DNA of 64,000 nucleotides from Vreelandella neptunia (GTDB lineage Bacteria; Pseudomonadota; Gammaproteobacteria; Pseudomonadales; Halomonadaceae): assembly GCF_000712975.1 (NCBI RefSeq), contig NZ_JHQL01000001.1, positions 1 through 64,000 on the forward strand. The letters are read 5' to 3'. The translations under genes and the position numbers were made by a program. Below the pieces are notes generated by a model that had not been told where the DNA came from, did not search any database, and was given only the letters and a program-made list of their open reading frames with translations. This document shows, piece by piece, positions 37,404 to 56,402 of this stretch (its first letter is position 1; each line of letters begins with the position of its first letter).

Positions 37404-37736
37404 ATGAGCGTCCATCAACAGCTTCAAACCGCGCTTCTTGAGCTTGAAGCCACTATGAAGGCCGCAAACTTATGGCGTATGCCAACGCCAGAGGCCTCTG
37501 CCTTTGCTAGTGAACAACCTTTCTGCATCGATACGATGTCGTTGCCTCAATGGATTCGCTTTGTGTTTATTGCTCGACTAAATGCAATGATTGAAGCCCA
37601 ATCCGCTATGCCTGCTAAGTGCGATGTAGCACCGGCAGTGGCTGCTTATTTAATGCAGGAAAAGGTTCGTGCCAGCGACCAACTACTGGTTGTTAGAGCC
37701 GTCGAAAGGATTGATCAGATTGTGACTGACAACTAG
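37404..37736 (+). CDS. yqcC: YqcC family protein
   Basis: A 110-residue small soluble protein similar to E. coli YqcC: LLELEATMKAANLWRM, PFCIDTMSLPQWIRFVFIARL and a C-terminal helical part. Function unknown; in E. coli the gene is next to truC. I chose the ATG at 37404, with AAAGG upstream; the ATG at 37389 overlaps that site. A terminator follows. Confidence 0.88.
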   Translation: MSVHQQLQTALLELEATMKAANLWRMPTPEASAFASEQPFCIDTMSLPQWIRFVFIARLNAMIEAQSAMPAKCDVAPAVAAYLMQEKVRASDQLLVVRAVERIDQIVTDN

Positions 37737-50765: not shown

Positions 50766-50910
50766 ACTAGGCTCCCCGCAGTAGCAGTACTCGTTTGAAA
50801 GTTGAAAACCAGTATACGCGTGCTGCTCCTTAAGGCGAAAATTTTGCCGTTTTGCGAACTTTTCCTGTGCACGGTGTCTGAAGGTTTACAGGCAACATCG
50901 CGATAGCAGT

Positions 50911-50985
50911 CGTTAATAGTGTTGTTCTGGCTATTGTTTTCGATCCCTTGCTTCCGCTGCTTATACTAAGCAGCGGTTTTTTTTG
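50911..50985 (+). ncRNA. Candidate small RNA A (paralogue of candidate B)
   Basis: A gene-free plus-strand stretch between two minus-strand genes ends in a strong Rho-independent terminator. No plus-strand protein gene lies upstream for more than 13 kb. It contains the hairpin AATAG/CTATT with TGTTGT in its loop (50920-50925), then GATCCCTTGCTT (50942-50953), then the terminator. Candidate B at 55387-55487 has the same order of elements. The 5' end and promoter were not found, so it may begin further left. The remaining stretches, 50766-50910 and 50986-51157, show no gene; only a GGCGAAAATTTTGCC palindrome at about 50834 stands out. Confidence 0.55.
50953..50985 (+). terminator. Rho-independent terminator of candidate RNA A
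   Basis: The perfect stem CCGCTGCTTA / TAAGCAGCGG has a TAC loop and eight T residues. It is oriented for the plus strand only. Confidence 0.92.
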
Positions 50986-51157
50986 CTTTTAAGATGGTCG
51001 TTTCACTTAACGCAAACACTTATTTAACCGAAAAGGTGTCGATAAGTGGCTATCCGCAGCGAAGAGAACGTGTGGGTGATAGCTCGTGACCTTCAGCGAA
51101 TAGATCAAGGCCCAGCAGATGGCAGCTACTAGACAGAGAATCGCTGATAAATAACGG

Positions 51158-51565
51158 TTAGTGGCGGCGAATAGTAAGCAGCGCCATTAAAATATCACGG
51201 CGCGTTACAATGCCGACTAAACGTTGCTGTTCCACAACGGGATAAATCTTGGGCTTAGCTCCGAGCATCTCTTGTGCCAAATCGGTGATGCTTTTGTTGG
51301 GCGTTGTTGTGAGCACATCTTGGCGCATTAATTCCCGAACCAGCGGCGCTTCATCGTCGTGGTAGATACTGTCTAAAACGCGGCCCATCACATCCTGTTC
51401 CGATATAAAACCAATTAGCCGATCAGAGGTATCTACCACCGGAGCGCCTGGTAAGCGATGTAATGCTAAACCCTGAGCCAAGGTGGTGATAGAGGTCTCA
51501 CCAGTAACACGATAGCAGTCCCGTGACATGACATCGCGCACGGTATCGGGGGTTTTTTTATTCAT
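51158..51565 (-). CDS. CBS-domain pair protein
   Basis: A 135-residue protein made of two CBS motifs in tandem (residues about 8-65 and 75-132). Seen are VRDVMSRDCYRVTGE, LPGAPVVDTSDRLIGFISEQDVMG, LTTTPNKSITDLAQEM and KIYPVVEQQRLVGIVTRRDILMALL. Such stand-alone Bateman modules bind adenine nucleotides and sense energy state. Target unknown. It stands alone, with GGAGT before the ATG. Confidence 0.9.
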   Translation of the reverse strand: MNKKTPDTVRDVMSRDCYRVTGETSITTLAQGLALHRLPGAPVVDTSDRLIGFISEQDVMGRVLDSIYHDDEAPLVRELMRQDVLTTTPNKSITDLAQEMLGAKPKIYPVVEQQRLVGIVTRRDILMALLTIRRH

Positions 51566-51760
51566 GGTGATACTCCTTAACGTGATACGCGCATTTTCGC
51601 TCTAAAAATGGGTCGGGTAGTGGCTGTGGGGCTAGGAACGATATGTGCTTTATTTTTATTAATGTAGAAGATTTAACTCATCCTGCGTTGTCCTTACTAA
51701 TGTTACATTCAACGCTTTGCTCTTTTTCAAATGCTATTTCAACTACTACAAGGAGCCACT

Positions 51761-52291
51761 ATGGACGCGCGTGAATACCTCAATCGCAAAGGCGTTGGCA
51801 TAGAAAGAGACCCTGAACGGCCCAACACATTAGAAGAAAAAGCGTGGGAAAGGGCGCGTGGGTCAGGTAGCCAGCGGCCTAAGTCTGGCACGCCCCATGA
51901 CTGGGAAGATTGGGAGCGCCATCATGATGATTTGGCAGACGGTGCGGAAACGTTAGAGCAGAAAATAGATAAAGAGGCGCATCAAAAAGCGCTTGCTAAA
52001 GAGAAACAGCAGGCTGAAAAAGCACGGGCGGCGGTAGAGCATTTTACTCCCCCTGTGCAGCCGGATATTCAGCATCAAGCGTCATCTTCTACGGCTTCGG
52101 GAGTAACGCCAATATCATCTCAGCCCGCTGCTTTACTGCTTGCTTACCGTGCGCTAGCTATTCTACTACCGCCTTTGGCCGTCGGGTTAACAGACGGAGG
52201 GGCAAAACGTGTTGCTACTAGCATTGTATTGACGCTATTAGGCTGGATTCCAGGTGTGGTACATGCCTTTGTATGGTTAAAAAAGCACTAA
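51761..52291 (+). CDS. Pmp3/YqaE-type membrane protein with a long soluble N-terminal region
   Basis: A 176-residue protein. The first 90 residues are charged and helical (WERARGSGSQRPKSGTPHDW, then a Glu/Lys/Ala-rich coiled-coil-like run), followed by a Ser/Pro linker. The last 48 residues are a Pmp3/YqaE domain with two membrane helices (LAILLPPLAVGLTDGG and LTLLGWIPGVVHAFVW). Plain Pmp3 proteins have only about 50-60 residues and are linked to salt and cold tolerance. The N-terminal extension is unusual. AAGGAG supports the ATG at 51761. Confidence 0.85.
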   Translation: MDAREYLNRKGVGIERDPERPNTLEEKAWERARGSGSQRPKSGTPHDWEDWERHHDDLADGAETLEQKIDKEAHQKALAKEKQQAEKARAAVEHFTPPVQPDIQHQASSSTASGVTPISSQPAALLLAYRALAILLPPLAVGLTDGGAKRVATSIVLTLLGWIPGVVHAFVWLKKH

Positions 52292-52315
52292 TCCGTTAAT
52301 TACTCGTTTGGCCCA

Positions 52316-52343
52316 TTGGCAGTTGTTGTTAAGCGCGTATAAT
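52316..52343 (+). promoter_or_regulatory. Sigma-70 promoter of the DMT transporter gene
   Basis: -35 TTGGCA (52316-52321), a 16-bp spacer and a perfect -10 TATAAT (52338-52343), 34 bp before the ATG. Confidence 0.7.
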
Positions 52344-52376
52344 CTCCGTCAACTTTCCTTTTTTTTGAGGTTTACG

Positions 52377-53246
52377 ATGGGCTACCTTGTTGGCGTAACG
52401 GCGCTGTGGGCGTTCTCTTTTTCGTTGATCGGAGTGTATTTGGCTGGCCAAGTCGATAGCTATTTCGCAGTGCTCGTCAGAGTAACACTCGCCACGCTGG
52501 TCTTTTTGCCGTTTTTACGCCCCAGCTTGCTACGTGGCAGGCAGCGCTTAGCGTTAATGGCGTTGGGGGCGGTTCAGCTAGGCATCATGTACACCTTTTT
52601 TTACCACTCCTTTTTACTGCTATCGGTTCCTGAAGTACTGCTGTTTACGATTTTTACACCCATTTATATCGCGCTCCTAGATGACTTAATGTTTAAGCGC
52701 TTCACGCCTATTTATTTAGTAACCGCCATACTGGCGGTAATCGGAGCGGGCGTTATTCGTTACGACGGTATTGATAGTGGATTCTGGCTGGGCTTTTTAG
52801 TGGTGCAGGGGGCCAACCTCTGTTTTGCAATCGGGCAGGTGGGCTATCGGCGGCTAGCCGCTGATTTGCCGCCTACCTTGGCATGGCATAACGTTTTTGG
52901 CTGGTTCTTCGTTGGTGCGATGGTGGTCGCACTTCCCGCATTTTTACTCTTTGGTAATACGGCTGCACTCCCTACTACCCCAGTACAGTGGAGCGTATTG
53001 GCATGGCTTGGATTAGTCGCGTCTGGAGTGGGTTATTTCGCCTGGAACCAAGGCGCCACTAAAGTAGATGCGGGAACGTTAGCGGTAATGAACAATGCGC
53101 TAGTGCCCGCTGGCCTAGTGGTTAATTTGGTGATCTGGAATCGCGATGCGGAAATCGGTAAGCTACTTTTAGGTGCTGCAATCATGGCCGCCTCGCTGTG
53201 GTTAAATCACTGGTGGTTACAGCGCCGTCACGCTATATCTGTCTAA
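52377..53246 (+). CDS. DMT superfamily transporter (EamA domains)
   Basis: A 289-residue inner-membrane protein with about ten hydrophobic helices in two EamA halves (GVTALWAFSFSLIGVYLAGQ, then WLGLVASGVGYFAWNQGATKVDAGTLAVMNN across the second half). Family members export or import amino acids and other metabolites. The substrate is unknown. I chose the ATG at 52377, preceded by TGAGG and by a clear promoter. An upstream in-frame start at 52308 lies before that promoter and is rejected. A weak inverted repeat (TTGCCCAG/CTGGGCAA, 53266-53305) follows. Confidence 0.88.
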   Translation: MGYLVGVTALWAFSFSLIGVYLAGQVDSYFAVLVRVTLATLVFLPFLRPSLLRGRQRLALMALGAVQLGIMYTFFYHSFLLLSVPEVLLFTIFTPIYIALLDDLMFKRFTPIYLVTAILAVIGAGVIRYDGIDSGFWLGFLVVQGANLCFAIGQVGYRRLAADLPPTLAWHNVFGWFFVGAMVVALPAFLLFGNTAALPTTPVQWSVLAWLGLVASGVGYFAWNQGATKVDAGTLAVMNNALVPAGLVVNLVIWNRDAEIGKLLLGAAIMAASLWLNHWWLQRRHAISV

Positions 53247-53362
53247 TTAATTCAAGCCATTGTTTTTGCCCAGGGGAGCTTGCGTTTCTGCATTACACTG
53301 GGCAATTTGCTCGATACCCTCATACTCTCCATAATGTGGGCTGATGCCAGCGAGAGTTGTCC

Positions 53363-54355
53363 ATGTCTAACACCCCATCGTCAGGTTTAGCACCCTTGAG
53401 CCAGGCCCAACAAACGCAGCCTTTCGAAACGACGTCTTTTAAGACGAGGCCTTCTAAAGCAGCGCCTTTTAAGACAGCGCCTTTTAAGACAATAGGCTTA
53501 ATCGGCCGTTTAGGCAGCGATAAAGTGGTCGATTCGCTCAAAAGGCTGGTCAACTATTTAGTTACCCATGATTATAAAGTATTGATTGAGGATCGGACGG
53601 CAACGGCGTTACCGGATCATGGGCTGCCTGAAGCCAGCCGCCGCATACTTGGAGAGTTATGCGATCTTGTCATCGTTGTTGGTGGCGATGGCAGCCTTCT
53701 GGGCGCCGCACGCACGCTATGCCTTAGTGGTACGTTAATATTAGGCGTCAACCGTGGGCGGTTAGGCTTTTTAACCGATATTTCTCCCGATGAGTTGGAA
53801 AGCCGGGTTGGTGAAGTGTTAGCGGGTGAGTTTGAAGTTGAAGAGCGTTTCTTGCTTGATTCCGTGTTGTATCGAAACGGTAAAGCGGTAGGTAGCGGTG
53901 TTGCGCTCAATGAAGTGGTGGTTCATCCCGGTAAAGCGGTACGAATGATTGAGTTCGAACTGTTTATTGATGGGCAGTTTGTGTATAGCCAGCGTAGTGA
54001 TGGCTTAATTATTGCTACGCCGACAGGTTCAACTGCCTATGCTCTTTCGGGGGGTGGGCCGATCATGCATCCCAAGCTTGATGTGGTGACGTTAGTCCCC
54101 ATGTTTCCCCACACGCTTTCAAGCCGTCCTATTGTGATTGACGCTGCCAGTGAAATCCGTATCCATATTGGTGAAACCAATCAGACCTATCCCCATATCA
54201 GTTGCGATGGACAAACCCGTGCAGTGGCTAAACCAGACGATGTGCTTGTCATACAACGCAAACCAGAGCGTGTACAGCTAGTTCACCCTATTGGGCATAA
54301 TTTTTATGAAGTGCTGCGCAGCAAGCTCGGCTGGAGCCATCGGCTAGGGGATTAA
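53363..54355 (+). CDS. nadK: NAD kinase NadK with repetitive N-terminal extension
   Basis: NadK phosphorylates NAD to NADP. The 330-residue protein has the GGDG motif in VVGGDGSLLGAAR near residue 108, NRGRLGFLTDI near 132, NEVVVHPG, and DGLIIATPTGSTAYALSGGG near 213. Usual proteobacterial NadK has 290-300 residues. Here the first 43 residues before IGLIGR are an extension that includes imperfect S/P-F-K-T repeats encoded by a 15-bp minisatellite. The ATG at 53363 is used; a TTG two codons earlier is unlikely. The phosphatase gene follows by 1 bp. Confidence 0.95.
   Translation: MSNTPSSGLAPLSQAQQTQPFETTSFKTRPSKAAPFKTAPFKTIGLIGRLGSDKVVDSLKRLVNYLVTHDYKVLIEDRTATALPDHGLPEASRRILGELCDLVIVVGGDGSLLGAARTLCLSGTLILGVNRGRLGFLTDISPDELESRVGEVLAGEFEVEERFLLDSVLYRNGKAVGSGVALNEVVVHPGKAVRMIEFELFIDGQFVYSQRSDGLIIATPTGSTAYALSGGGPIMHPKLDVVTLVPMFPHTLSSRPIVIDAASEIRIHIGETNQTYPHISCDGQTRAVAKPDDVLVIQRKPERVQLVHPIGHNFYEVLRSKLGWSHRLGD
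53417..53491 (+). repeat. 15-bp minisatellite inside nadK
   Basis: Five consecutive 15-bp units occupy 53417-53491. The last two (53462-53476, 53477-53491; GCGCCTTTTAAGACA) are identical and the others degenerate. In frame, they encode repeats of the type Ala-Pro-Phe-Lys-Thr. Confidence 0.88.
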
Positions 54356-54356
54356 C

Positions 54357-55343
54357 ATGGAGGGCTACGATTTAATTGGCGATGTACATGGGTGTGGTGC
54401 AACACTTGCAGCGTTATTAGAGCGGCTTGGCTATCATCAGCGGGGTGGGGTATATCGACACCCTCGCCGAAAAGTGATCTTTTTAGGCGACTTGATCGAT
54501 CGTGGACCACGTATTCGTCTAGCAGTTACGATTGCACGCCGAATGGTTGAAGAGGGTGAAGCACATATTGTCATGGGTAACCATGAGTACAATGCTCTGG
54601 CTTATACGCACCCCGCCCCCCCTGGTAGCAACAAGCGCTGGCTGCGCGAACATACACCGCGTCATAACCGTATTATTGAGGCCACGCTAGCTCAATACCG
54701 CGATTACACCAATGAGTGGGAAGATACCCTGGCGTGGTTTAAGACCATTCCTTTATGCCTAGAGCTGGACGGAATTCGTATAGTTCACGCCTGCTGGGAT
54801 GAAGAGTTGATTAGACAGCTTAAACAACGCGCTCCCAATGCCTGCATGGATAGCCACTTTTTGGTTGAGTCCACCGACCCCTCAACGCAAGCCTTTCGTA
54901 TACTTGATCGCTTAACCCGCGGCCCTCATATACCGTTACCTAAAGGTATTGCGATACATTCTGGTGATGGCTTCACACGGCAGAGTTTTCGTGCGCATTT
55001 TTGGTCGGCTAACCCTCAACAATGGGGGGATGTAGTATTTCAGCCAGATAACCTTCCTGGTGATTTGGAGACTAGAACGCTAACTAACGCCGAGCGCCAG
55101 CGTCTTAGCTACTATGGCCCTGAGCAGCCACCCCTATTTATCGGTCATTACTGGTGCGAAGGGATTCCTGCCTTGCCAGCACACAATATTGCTTGCTTGG
55201 ATTACAGTGCTGTGAAATTTGGCCGACTGGTTGCTTATCGCTGGAGCGGCGAAGCGCAGCTCAATGCCGATCATTTTGTGTGGATACAGGTACCAAAAGA
55301 AGAGCGTGCGCTGCCAAAGCCGTGGGAAATAGATTTCGATTAA
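54357..55343 (+). CDS. PPP-type metallophosphoesterase
   Basis: A 328-residue phosphatase of the calcineurin-like PPP superfamily. The metal-binding motifs are GDVHG (8-12), GDLIDRG (about 44) and GNHE (about 74), with further His in IVHACWD and FIGHYW. Such stand-alone bacterial enzymes include PrpE- and ApaH-type dinucleoside-polyphosphate hydrolases and protein phosphatases. The exact substrate cannot be assigned. It starts 1 bp after the nadK stop, so nadK and this gene form an operon. Confidence 0.88.
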   Translation: MEGYDLIGDVHGCGATLAALLERLGYHQRGGVYRHPRRKVIFLGDLIDRGPRIRLAVTIARRMVEEGEAHIVMGNHEYNALAYTHPAPPGSNKRWLREHTPRHNRIIEATLAQYRDYTNEWEDTLAWFKTIPLCLELDGIRIVHACWDEELIRQLKQRAPNACMDSHFLVESTDPSTQAFRILDRLTRGPHIPLPKGIAIHSGDGFTRQSFRAHFWSANPQQWGDVVFQPDNLPGDLETRTLTNAERQRLSYYGPEQPPLFIGHYWCEGIPALPAHNIACLDYSAVKFGRLVAYRWSGEAQLNADHFVWIQVPKEERALPKPWEIDFD

Positions 55344-55386
55344 TGGGAGTGATTTTTAGCTTTACATACCGTTACATAATTTTTTC

Positions 55387-55487
55387 AAAATAGCTGAACT
55401 AACGGTGTTGTCGGTTATCAGAGTAAGTGTTCCCTTGAATGATCCCTTGCTTTTTTTTCCGGCGGCCCCCTCCGCCGGATTTTTTTC
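55387..55487 (+). ncRNA. Candidate small RNA B (paralogue of candidate A)
   Basis: About 100 bases between the phosphatase and rhomboid genes. A possible -10 CATAAT (55375-55380) predicts a start near 55387. The hairpin TAAC/GTTA (55400-55417) displays TGTTGT in its loop. Two CCCTTG copies follow (in TTCCCTTG, then GATCCCTTGCTT at 55441-55452), then a U-rich tract and a strong terminator. Candidate A shares the loop, the GATCCCTTGCTT segment and the order. The CCCUUG segments could pair with AAGGG-type ribosome-binding sites. The alternative is that this is only the 3' end of the nadK-phosphatase transcript. Confidence 0.55.
55458..55487 (+). terminator. Rho-independent terminator of candidate RNA B or the nadK operon
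   Basis: The stem TCCGGCGG / CCGCCGGA has a CCCCCT loop and seven T residues. An eight-T run precedes the stem. Confidence 0.92.
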
Positions 55488-55550
55488 GTCTATCCGTTGG
55501 TGACGCGGCGCGCTGTCGCGCTAATATTTATTGGTTGAAAGGAACCTGCC

Positions 55551-56402
55551 ATGCATCCAGTAATGCTCTTACCCACGGACGCAGATACCAAAGAACTGCG
55601 TAAGGCGCTGTGGCACTACCGCATTGGTCACCGTATTACTGATGAGGCAGACGGCCAACTGCTATGGGTTGCCGACCCGCGCCAGCAAGATGAAATGAAA
55701 GTACTCGTTAGCTGCTGGGAGCGAGGTGAGCCACTAATCACTACTGCCGCTAGATCGAGCCGCCAGACCCCAGCCCGTCATTTTTTACCCATGCTGCGCC
55801 AAGTGCCGGTTACTGCGCTGATGATTGCTATTAGCCTAGCGGTGTTCGCGCTGACTGGGATATTTGGTGATCTGCTAATTGTAAAACTCACCATTGTTTC
55901 GGTGGGGGTCGCCGGCGGTCAGCTCGTATATGGCAGCCTTAGCGATACGATAATGTCTGGTCAGTTATGGCGTTTATTGTCGCCTGCATTCTTACATTTT
56001 GGCTGGATGCATTTGATCTTTAACCTAATGTGGGTTTGGTACTTCGGACGTCAAATTGAGCAGCTTCAAGGTAGTCGTATCATGCTGCTACTGCTTATCG
56101 TGGCAGGTATTGGTGCTAACATCGCCCAGTACATTACCGGCACGGTGTTGTTCGGCGGTATGTCTGGCGTTGTTTACGCCTTGCTGGCTCATGTGTGGTT
56201 GATGTCCTATCGTGCCCCGCAAAGCGGATTTTTCGTCCCCCAGATGTTGGTAGTCTTCATGCTGGGCTGGATGGTATTTACGATGACCGATATTGCCGGC
56301 AGCGTGGGCTTTGGTAACGTAGCCAATGAAGCACACTTGGGCGGGCTGCTCGTGGGGCTGGTCACGGGCTGGTATTATTCCTCCAAACGAAGCAAACACT
56401 AA
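55551..56402 (+). CDS. glpG: Rhomboid intramembrane serine protease (GlpG type)
   Basis: A 283-residue membrane protease with an N-terminal cytoplasmic region of about 80 residues and six predicted membrane helices. The catalytic dyad is visible: S205 in GGMSGVVYAL and H262 in NEAHLGGLLVG. HFGWMHLIFNLMWVWYFGRQIE is the typical loop-and-helix region of GlpG. It cleaves single-pass membrane substrates within the bilayer. AAAGGAA precedes the ATG. yeaC follows after 11 bp. Confidence 0.93.
   Translation: MHPVMLLPTDADTKELRKALWHYRIGHRITDEADGQLLWVADPRQQDEMKVLVSCWERGEPLITTAARSSRQTPARHFLPMLRQVPVTALMIAISLAVFALTGIFGDLLIVKLTIVSVGVAGGQLVYGSLSDTIMSGQLWRLLSPAFLHFGWMHLIFNLMWVWYFGRQIEQLQGSRIMLLLLIVAGIGANIAQYITGTVLFGGMSGVVYALLAHVWLMSYRAPQSGFFVPQMLVVFMLGWMVFTMTDIAGSVGFGNVANEAHLGGLLVGLVTGWYYSSKRSKH

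Follow-up and report, generated by a model that had tools for sequence, protein, structure and literature searches.

Two likely small-RNA genes of sigma-E-dependent kind in Vreelandella neptunia, one with a conserved double CCCUUG block

By comparing a 64-kb stretch of Vreelandella neptunia DNA (the window, meaning the whole stretch that was analysed) with related genomes, we found two intergenic regions, A and B, that are likely to be two small-RNA genes of the sigma-E-dependent kind. At the predicted start of each gene there is a promoter that is, by its sequence, of sigma-E type, and each ends in a terminator on the same strand (Table 1). We consider it probable that A and B are separate genes for trans-acting small RNAs with sigma-E promoters, and that B represses envelope mRNAs by means of its seeds. 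Neither was found in any Rfam 15 family, and they appear to make up a new family within a known kind. What comparison shows is their conservation, the anatomy of promoters and terminators, the presence of rpoE and the family range.

Table 1. Positions of the likely RNAs A and B and of their parts in the window
Feature	Positions	Strand	Remarks
Promoter of A, GAACTT-N15-TCTGA	50856..50881	+	sigma-E/AlgU type by sequence
RNA A, ~97 nt	50888..50984	+	start predicted from promoter, end from terminator
Seed-like GATCCCTTGCTT of A	50942..50953	+	same-genus copies: intact in 33/36, one change in 3/36
Terminator of A	50954..50984	+	hairpin 50954-50976, 10-pair stem, then 8 T
Promoter of B, GAACTA-N16-TCAGA	55396..55422	+	sigma-E/AlgU type by sequence; contains the hairpin loop supposed earlier
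RNA B, ~58 nt	55429..55486	+	start predicted; in 37/37 same-genus genomes
5' block GTTCCCTTGAATGATCCCTTGC with two CCCTTG seeds	55429..55450	+	identical in 37/37 same-genus copies
Terminator of B	55458..55486	+	hairpin 55458-55479, 8-pair stem, then 7 T

Layout and promoters of the two likely genes

An earlier note on this DNA had drawn attention to a 12-mer shared by the two regions, each time ahead of a plus-strand Rho-independent terminator, and both elements are real. The 12-mer GATCCCTTGCTT lies at 50942-50953 in A and 55441-55452 in B, with no further occurrence in the 64-kb window even when one mismatch is allowed, and both copies are followed by terminator-like hairpins with T runs. 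A third copy in the same genome (C3:544436-544447, minus strand) was read as coding and without a terminator, and looks like chance. Region A is flanked by the genes for a 119-aa protein and a CBS-domain protein, both on the minus strand, and because the nearest upstream plus-strand open reading frame ends at 37736 (by crude ORF calling), the statement that A has no plus-strand gene before it for over 13 kb is borne out. The neighbors of B are a calcineurin-like phosphoesterase gene and a rhomboid gene.

Upstream of A, the motif GAACTT-N15-TCNNA is present in all 36 same-genus copies (26 with TCTGA, 8 with TCAGA and 2 with TCTTA), and in 16 of the 17 matches to the covariance model of A (R1) in named family pieces. 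The boxes upstream of B are GAACT and TCAGA or TCTGA in 34 of 37 same-genus copies, and GAACC and TCATA in the other three; among 80 copies from named genomes, our script found the motif in 75 (one at a spurious place) and the remaining five have GAAACT. When 48 copies of B were aligned (37 of the 80 named copies and 11 found by blastn), the two boxes carried 1.78 and 1.69 bits per column, compared to 0.37 for the spacer. The boxes of A and B fit the sigma-E (RpoE/AlgU) promoter consensus. A strict form of the motif has three matches in 864 kb, two of them outside called genes, one being that of A, and a looser form has nine, three of them outside genes (A, B and C3:314920). When the -10 was kept and the -35 hexamer scrambled in eight ways, 0-13 matches resulted, 0-3 of them outside genes, so that there is no excess of the motif over these controls in the 864 kb, and the case for the promoters rests on their conserved placement. 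Another sigma-E-type site, C3:79199, was considered as a small-RNA promoter and set aside since it leads into a long membrane-protein-like ORF.

The promoters also changed how the two regions are to be read. The note had described a shared hairpin loop with TGTTGT on base-paired stems. In B, this sequence sits between the -35 and -10 boxes and thus probably precedes the transcript; as promoter spacer it has 49% mean column identity over the 48 copies, and the loop was rejected there. In A it is an alternative fold only: the AATAG/CTATT stem can pair in 81% of cells, but two of the five pairs do not form in 16 and 13, respectively, of the 35 distinct sequences, and RNAalifold favors another 5' stem. 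The proposal of one structured RNA family was not supported; what the two regions share is the promoter type and, within the genus, one seed-like 12-mer. RNA genes in both gaps are likely by comparison, with boundaries other than those first drawn.

Conservation, fold and range of A and B

Conservation past the terminators, suggested earlier as a check, was found for both regions. By blastn against 58 relatives, B matched in 37, which are all 37 same-genus genomes (its own included), and A in 36, all of the same genus; the sole same-genus miss for A (G009) was recovered by the covariance model. None of 21 genomes from other families gave a blastn match to A or B. Within the genus, the three copies of A with an altered 12-mer read GATCCCTTGTTT; in the other genera read it becomes GATCCTTTGC, GATCTTTGCC or GATCGCATTC, and the CCCTTG common to both RNAs is retained by A within the genus only.

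The range of A was extended by model R1, which at an E cut-off of 0.01 matched 187 of the 275 family genomes, covering 6 of 24 genera and 80 of the 82 genomes of the window's genus. Matches are strong in g1 and most of g29; those in four other genera (g28, g36, g38 and g39) are weak, with E from ~1e-6 to 7e-3, and were counted from the model search; weak matches of R1 can fall on B. Against the named 8-kb pieces, many of which need not reach A, R1 matched 17 of 80 at E below 0.001. RNAalifold gives A a 5' stem of GCAACA with UGUUG(C/U), an inner GCGA/UCGC stem and the terminator. Of the 21 consensus pairs, 8 have changes on both sides, and 7 of these 8 are in the terminator (of its 9 pairs). 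The fold of the window's own A is better than that of all 200 shuffles, and its best fold differs from the consensus, pairing part of the seed-like stretch with the 5' region. At four non-Vreelandella loci (L077, L087, L117 and L141) an oppositely oriented tRNA gene lies ~120-170 nt from A; the window contains no tRNA gene. One same-genus genome, G287, has A twice with identical scores (G287:C1:9678 and 3096555) and the 19-mer of B also twice, which may be an assembly overlap as the two copies of A lie near both ends of one contig.

For B, 238 of the 275 family genomes contain an exact copy of a 19-mer from the 5' block; they represent 17 of 24 genera and 81 of 82 genomes of the window's genus, and the reversed 19-mer is in none of the 275. 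The 37 genomes without the exact 19-mer include all eight of g35 and all six of g37; two or three copies are carried by seven of the ten g31 genomes and by 17 of the 18 in g42, genera that by their sequence look like Kushneria and Salinicola. Reading four further copies, from three genomes, showed the same block on other terminator stems, three of the four behind a GAACT..TCNNA promoter. A third block copy in one genome (L259, G233:C13:18610-18688) has no recognisable sigma-E-type promoter. Scanning named genomes with an exact 20-mer gave at least 119 stretches, from which the 80 named copies were taken; their hosts are of genera that we take to be Halomonadaceae (two were checked), MAGs thereof and one 'Gammaproteobacteria bacterium'. 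Because these 80 copies were picked with the exact 20-mer, their seeds are identical by construction, and the support independent of this choice comes from the same-genus blastn set and the 19-mer tally over 275 genomes. In Vreelandella venusta (L110), B nearly equals that of the window.

At 55429-55486, B folds into its terminator hairpin, its 5' end being either single-stranded or in a weak hairpin of four pairs, and its fold is better than that of all 200 shuffles. Its U-rich linker and tail are compatible with Hfq binding. We also considered a small ORF in B and, judging by eye, rejected it: the block reads GTG TTC CCT TGA and linker length varies.

No Rfam 15 family matches the window at gathering score. 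The earlier guess of P16/RgsA was dropped, as the P16 model has no match at gathering score in the window or at E up to 10 in 50780-55560. At E up to 10 that interval has three weak matches, one of which overlaps B: anti-hemB (RF02837; 16 bits against 49.5, E 3.4, 55431-55487), which is mostly terminator. The only VrrA match, at 53175-53311, is far below threshold and away from A and B; both were taken as chance. Across 17 related loci, Rfam 15 at gathering score returned four tRNAs only. A model of B with its promoter (R2), run on 293 genomes of the order, matched all 12 family genomes and, at E up to 1, 48 further genomes outside the family, most of them probably by chance. Four genomes of genus g67, which belongs to another family (L238, L239, L248 and L255), have GGAACTT..TCTGA in common, with a conserved RNA containing CUCUCCCUUGAUAG and then a terminator behind it. 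We found the pattern GAACT-N16-18-TCWGAGTAAGTG in 12 of the 293 genomes, 9 in the family and 3 outside, compared to one match for the reversed control.

Predicted targets and alternative readings

We infer that the two regions are transcribed, where transcription starts, that it depends on RpoE, that Hfq is bound, and which targets are regulated and with what sign, as follows. Envelope stress would free RpoE, and transcription would then run from near 50888 (A) and 55429 (B) to the terminators. The 5' end of B, almost free of internal pairing and bearing the two CCCUUG seeds, would base-pair with sequences of CAAGGGA type at ribosome-binding sites, probably while on Hfq, leading to less translation of outer-membrane receptors and lipoproteins. 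A, which in the genus has a second copy of seed 2, may share the targets of B.

That CCCUUG could be a seed against ribosome-binding sites, as the note had supposed, is in keeping with the anatomy and with some of the target results. Near the starts of 750 genes of the same genome (from our own ORF caller), 8-nt complements to B numbered 12, compared to 10.6 for mononucleotide-shuffled RNAs, which is no overall enrichment; exported genes with such complements are weakly enriched (4 against 1.27, P 0.067). A 9-mer pattern followed by ATG has nine matches in this genome against two when reversed, mostly not at gene starts. In four family genomes, CAAGGGAW-N2-12-ATG has 101 matches against 26 for a reversed control that is unmatched for ribosome-binding-site likeness. 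We read 100 of these 101 places, and L269 separately, which is no gene start. Frames of at least 35 aa follow in 52 cases; the 46 distinct frames of at least 60 aa, some of which are surely not genes, entered a crude export script, and 12 of 46 look exported compared to 87 of 750 in the background from our ORF caller (P 0.007). Receptors of btuB type are among them in two genomes. Pfam assigns a TonB plug domain to btuB, L327, L353 and L356; of the latter three, L353 alone is called exported by the script. L378 has LppC and L389 has ApbE, and no domain was found in L370 and L372.

The btuB case was followed through orthologues, which match in 44 of 61 genomes; 23 of 30 loci were read, the other seven being at 36% identity or less. 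GCAAGGG or GCAAGGGA is near the start in 18 of the 23 (one at -43), though the conservation may stem from the resemblance of CAAGGGA to a ribosome-binding site alone. A cobalamin riboswitch lies upstream in all three loci scanned; two of the btuB places read, L281 (upstream of 1419; G000:C1:145405) and L282:15745, have the riboswitch and GCAAGGGAT at the ribosome-binding site. By predicted duplex energy with B, btuB ranks 18th of the 750 genes. The strongest predicted duplex belongs to a CobB/CobQ-like gene, B12-related like btuB. A 12-nt perfect complement of the 5' region of B, TCAAGGGAACACC, was seen at L267 (G000:C2:692011-692046, minus strand), after a CsgG-like ORF (by eye) and before a terminator; it is possibly a target or a sponge, or chance. 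Taken together, the target evidence for B is suggestive and the envelope-target model plausible.

The RNAs may be real with main targets other than envelope genes, or B may act by protein binding. This would agree with the missing overall enrichment of complements and with the 15 strongest predicted duplexes, which by eye are mostly not envelope genes; exported ORFs behind CAAGGGAW sites nevertheless exceed background and include five TonB receptors, and we regard this account as possible, if rather doubtful. It is unlikely that another ECF sigma factor drives these promoters: two weaker, sub-cut-off matches to the RpoE model in the same genome would leave room for one, against which stand the RpoE/AlgU-type boxes and a full RpoE orthologue (rpoE, 305.5 bits against a cut-off of 236). 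The plus-strand stop of the phosphoesterase gene, at 55343, is 85 nt before B, whose terminator can serve both, so B could be the 3' end of that transcript and any small RNA a processing product; we think this improbable in view of the -35 and -10 boxes, which are conserved and keep their distance to the block, and of the extra block copies elsewhere with other terminators. Terminators joined to a coincidental 12-mer, as might be drawn from the 2 of 100 dinucleotide shuffles with at least two GATCCCTTGCTT matches and from the fortuitous-looking third copy, are barely credible given that both regions are conserved together with their promoters, which argues strongly against chance.

Beyond the favored reading of two sigma-E-type genes with B acting on envelope mRNAs, we tentatively raise a wider one, which we think somewhat less probable than not. 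The 5' block UUCCCUUGAAUGAUCCCUU would be a portable double-seed module, forming a Halomonadaceae-wide envelope-stress arm against TonB receptors and lipoproteins. It would be carried by one to three RNAs per genome, mostly behind sigma-E-type promoters and on interchangeable terminators, with A holding its second half in the genus and riboswitch-controlled btuB among the targets. The sigma-E-type RNA of g67 with CUCUCCCUUGAUAG may be a distant or convergent version of this module.

Comparison with known systems

Our searches of open-licence PMC papers turned up no small RNA native to the Halomonas family; the single small-RNA study on Halomonas found there, cited in PMC13414033, engineers an RNA borrowed from Pseudomonas. 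With exact copies in 238 of 275 genomes and an occurrence on different terminators, the 19-nt block lends itself to asking how a seed stays fixed in a changing RNA, and the proposed model offers connections to test in the envelope-stress response of halophiles used in industry.

P16/RgsA resembles A and B as an intergenic small RNA under a stress sigma factor, and PMC3709562 describes RgsA as RpoS-regulated. The promoter boxes of A and B, in contrast, appear to be of ECF type. Pseudomonas aeruginosa belongs to the same GTDB order as the Halomonadaceae. Its small RNA ErsA depends on sigma-22 (AlgU), according to PMC5819304. ErsA and our candidates, which are taken to be distinct from it, would be alike in AlgU-type control. 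In Fusobacterium, FoxI and FoxJ are two sigma-E-linked small RNAs with similar C-rich seeds and partly common targets, as PMC11005410 reports. Likened by description, they are a similar pair of sigma-E-type RNAs in a different phylum. VrrA of Vibrio is presented in PMC2628432 as an intergenic small RNA driven by sigma-E from a promoter of that type and acting on ompA. It differs from A (~97 nt) and B (~58 nt) in its length of 140 nt. RybB and MicA are the sigma-E-dependent small RNAs of Escherichia and Salmonella. A and B are like them in the sigma-E-type promoter, the short RNA, the U-tailed terminator and the proposed repression of outer-membrane mRNAs, and B is further like RybB in having a seed at or near the 5' end; they differ in having another seed, doubled in B, in lacking an Rfam match, and in their Halomonadaceae host.
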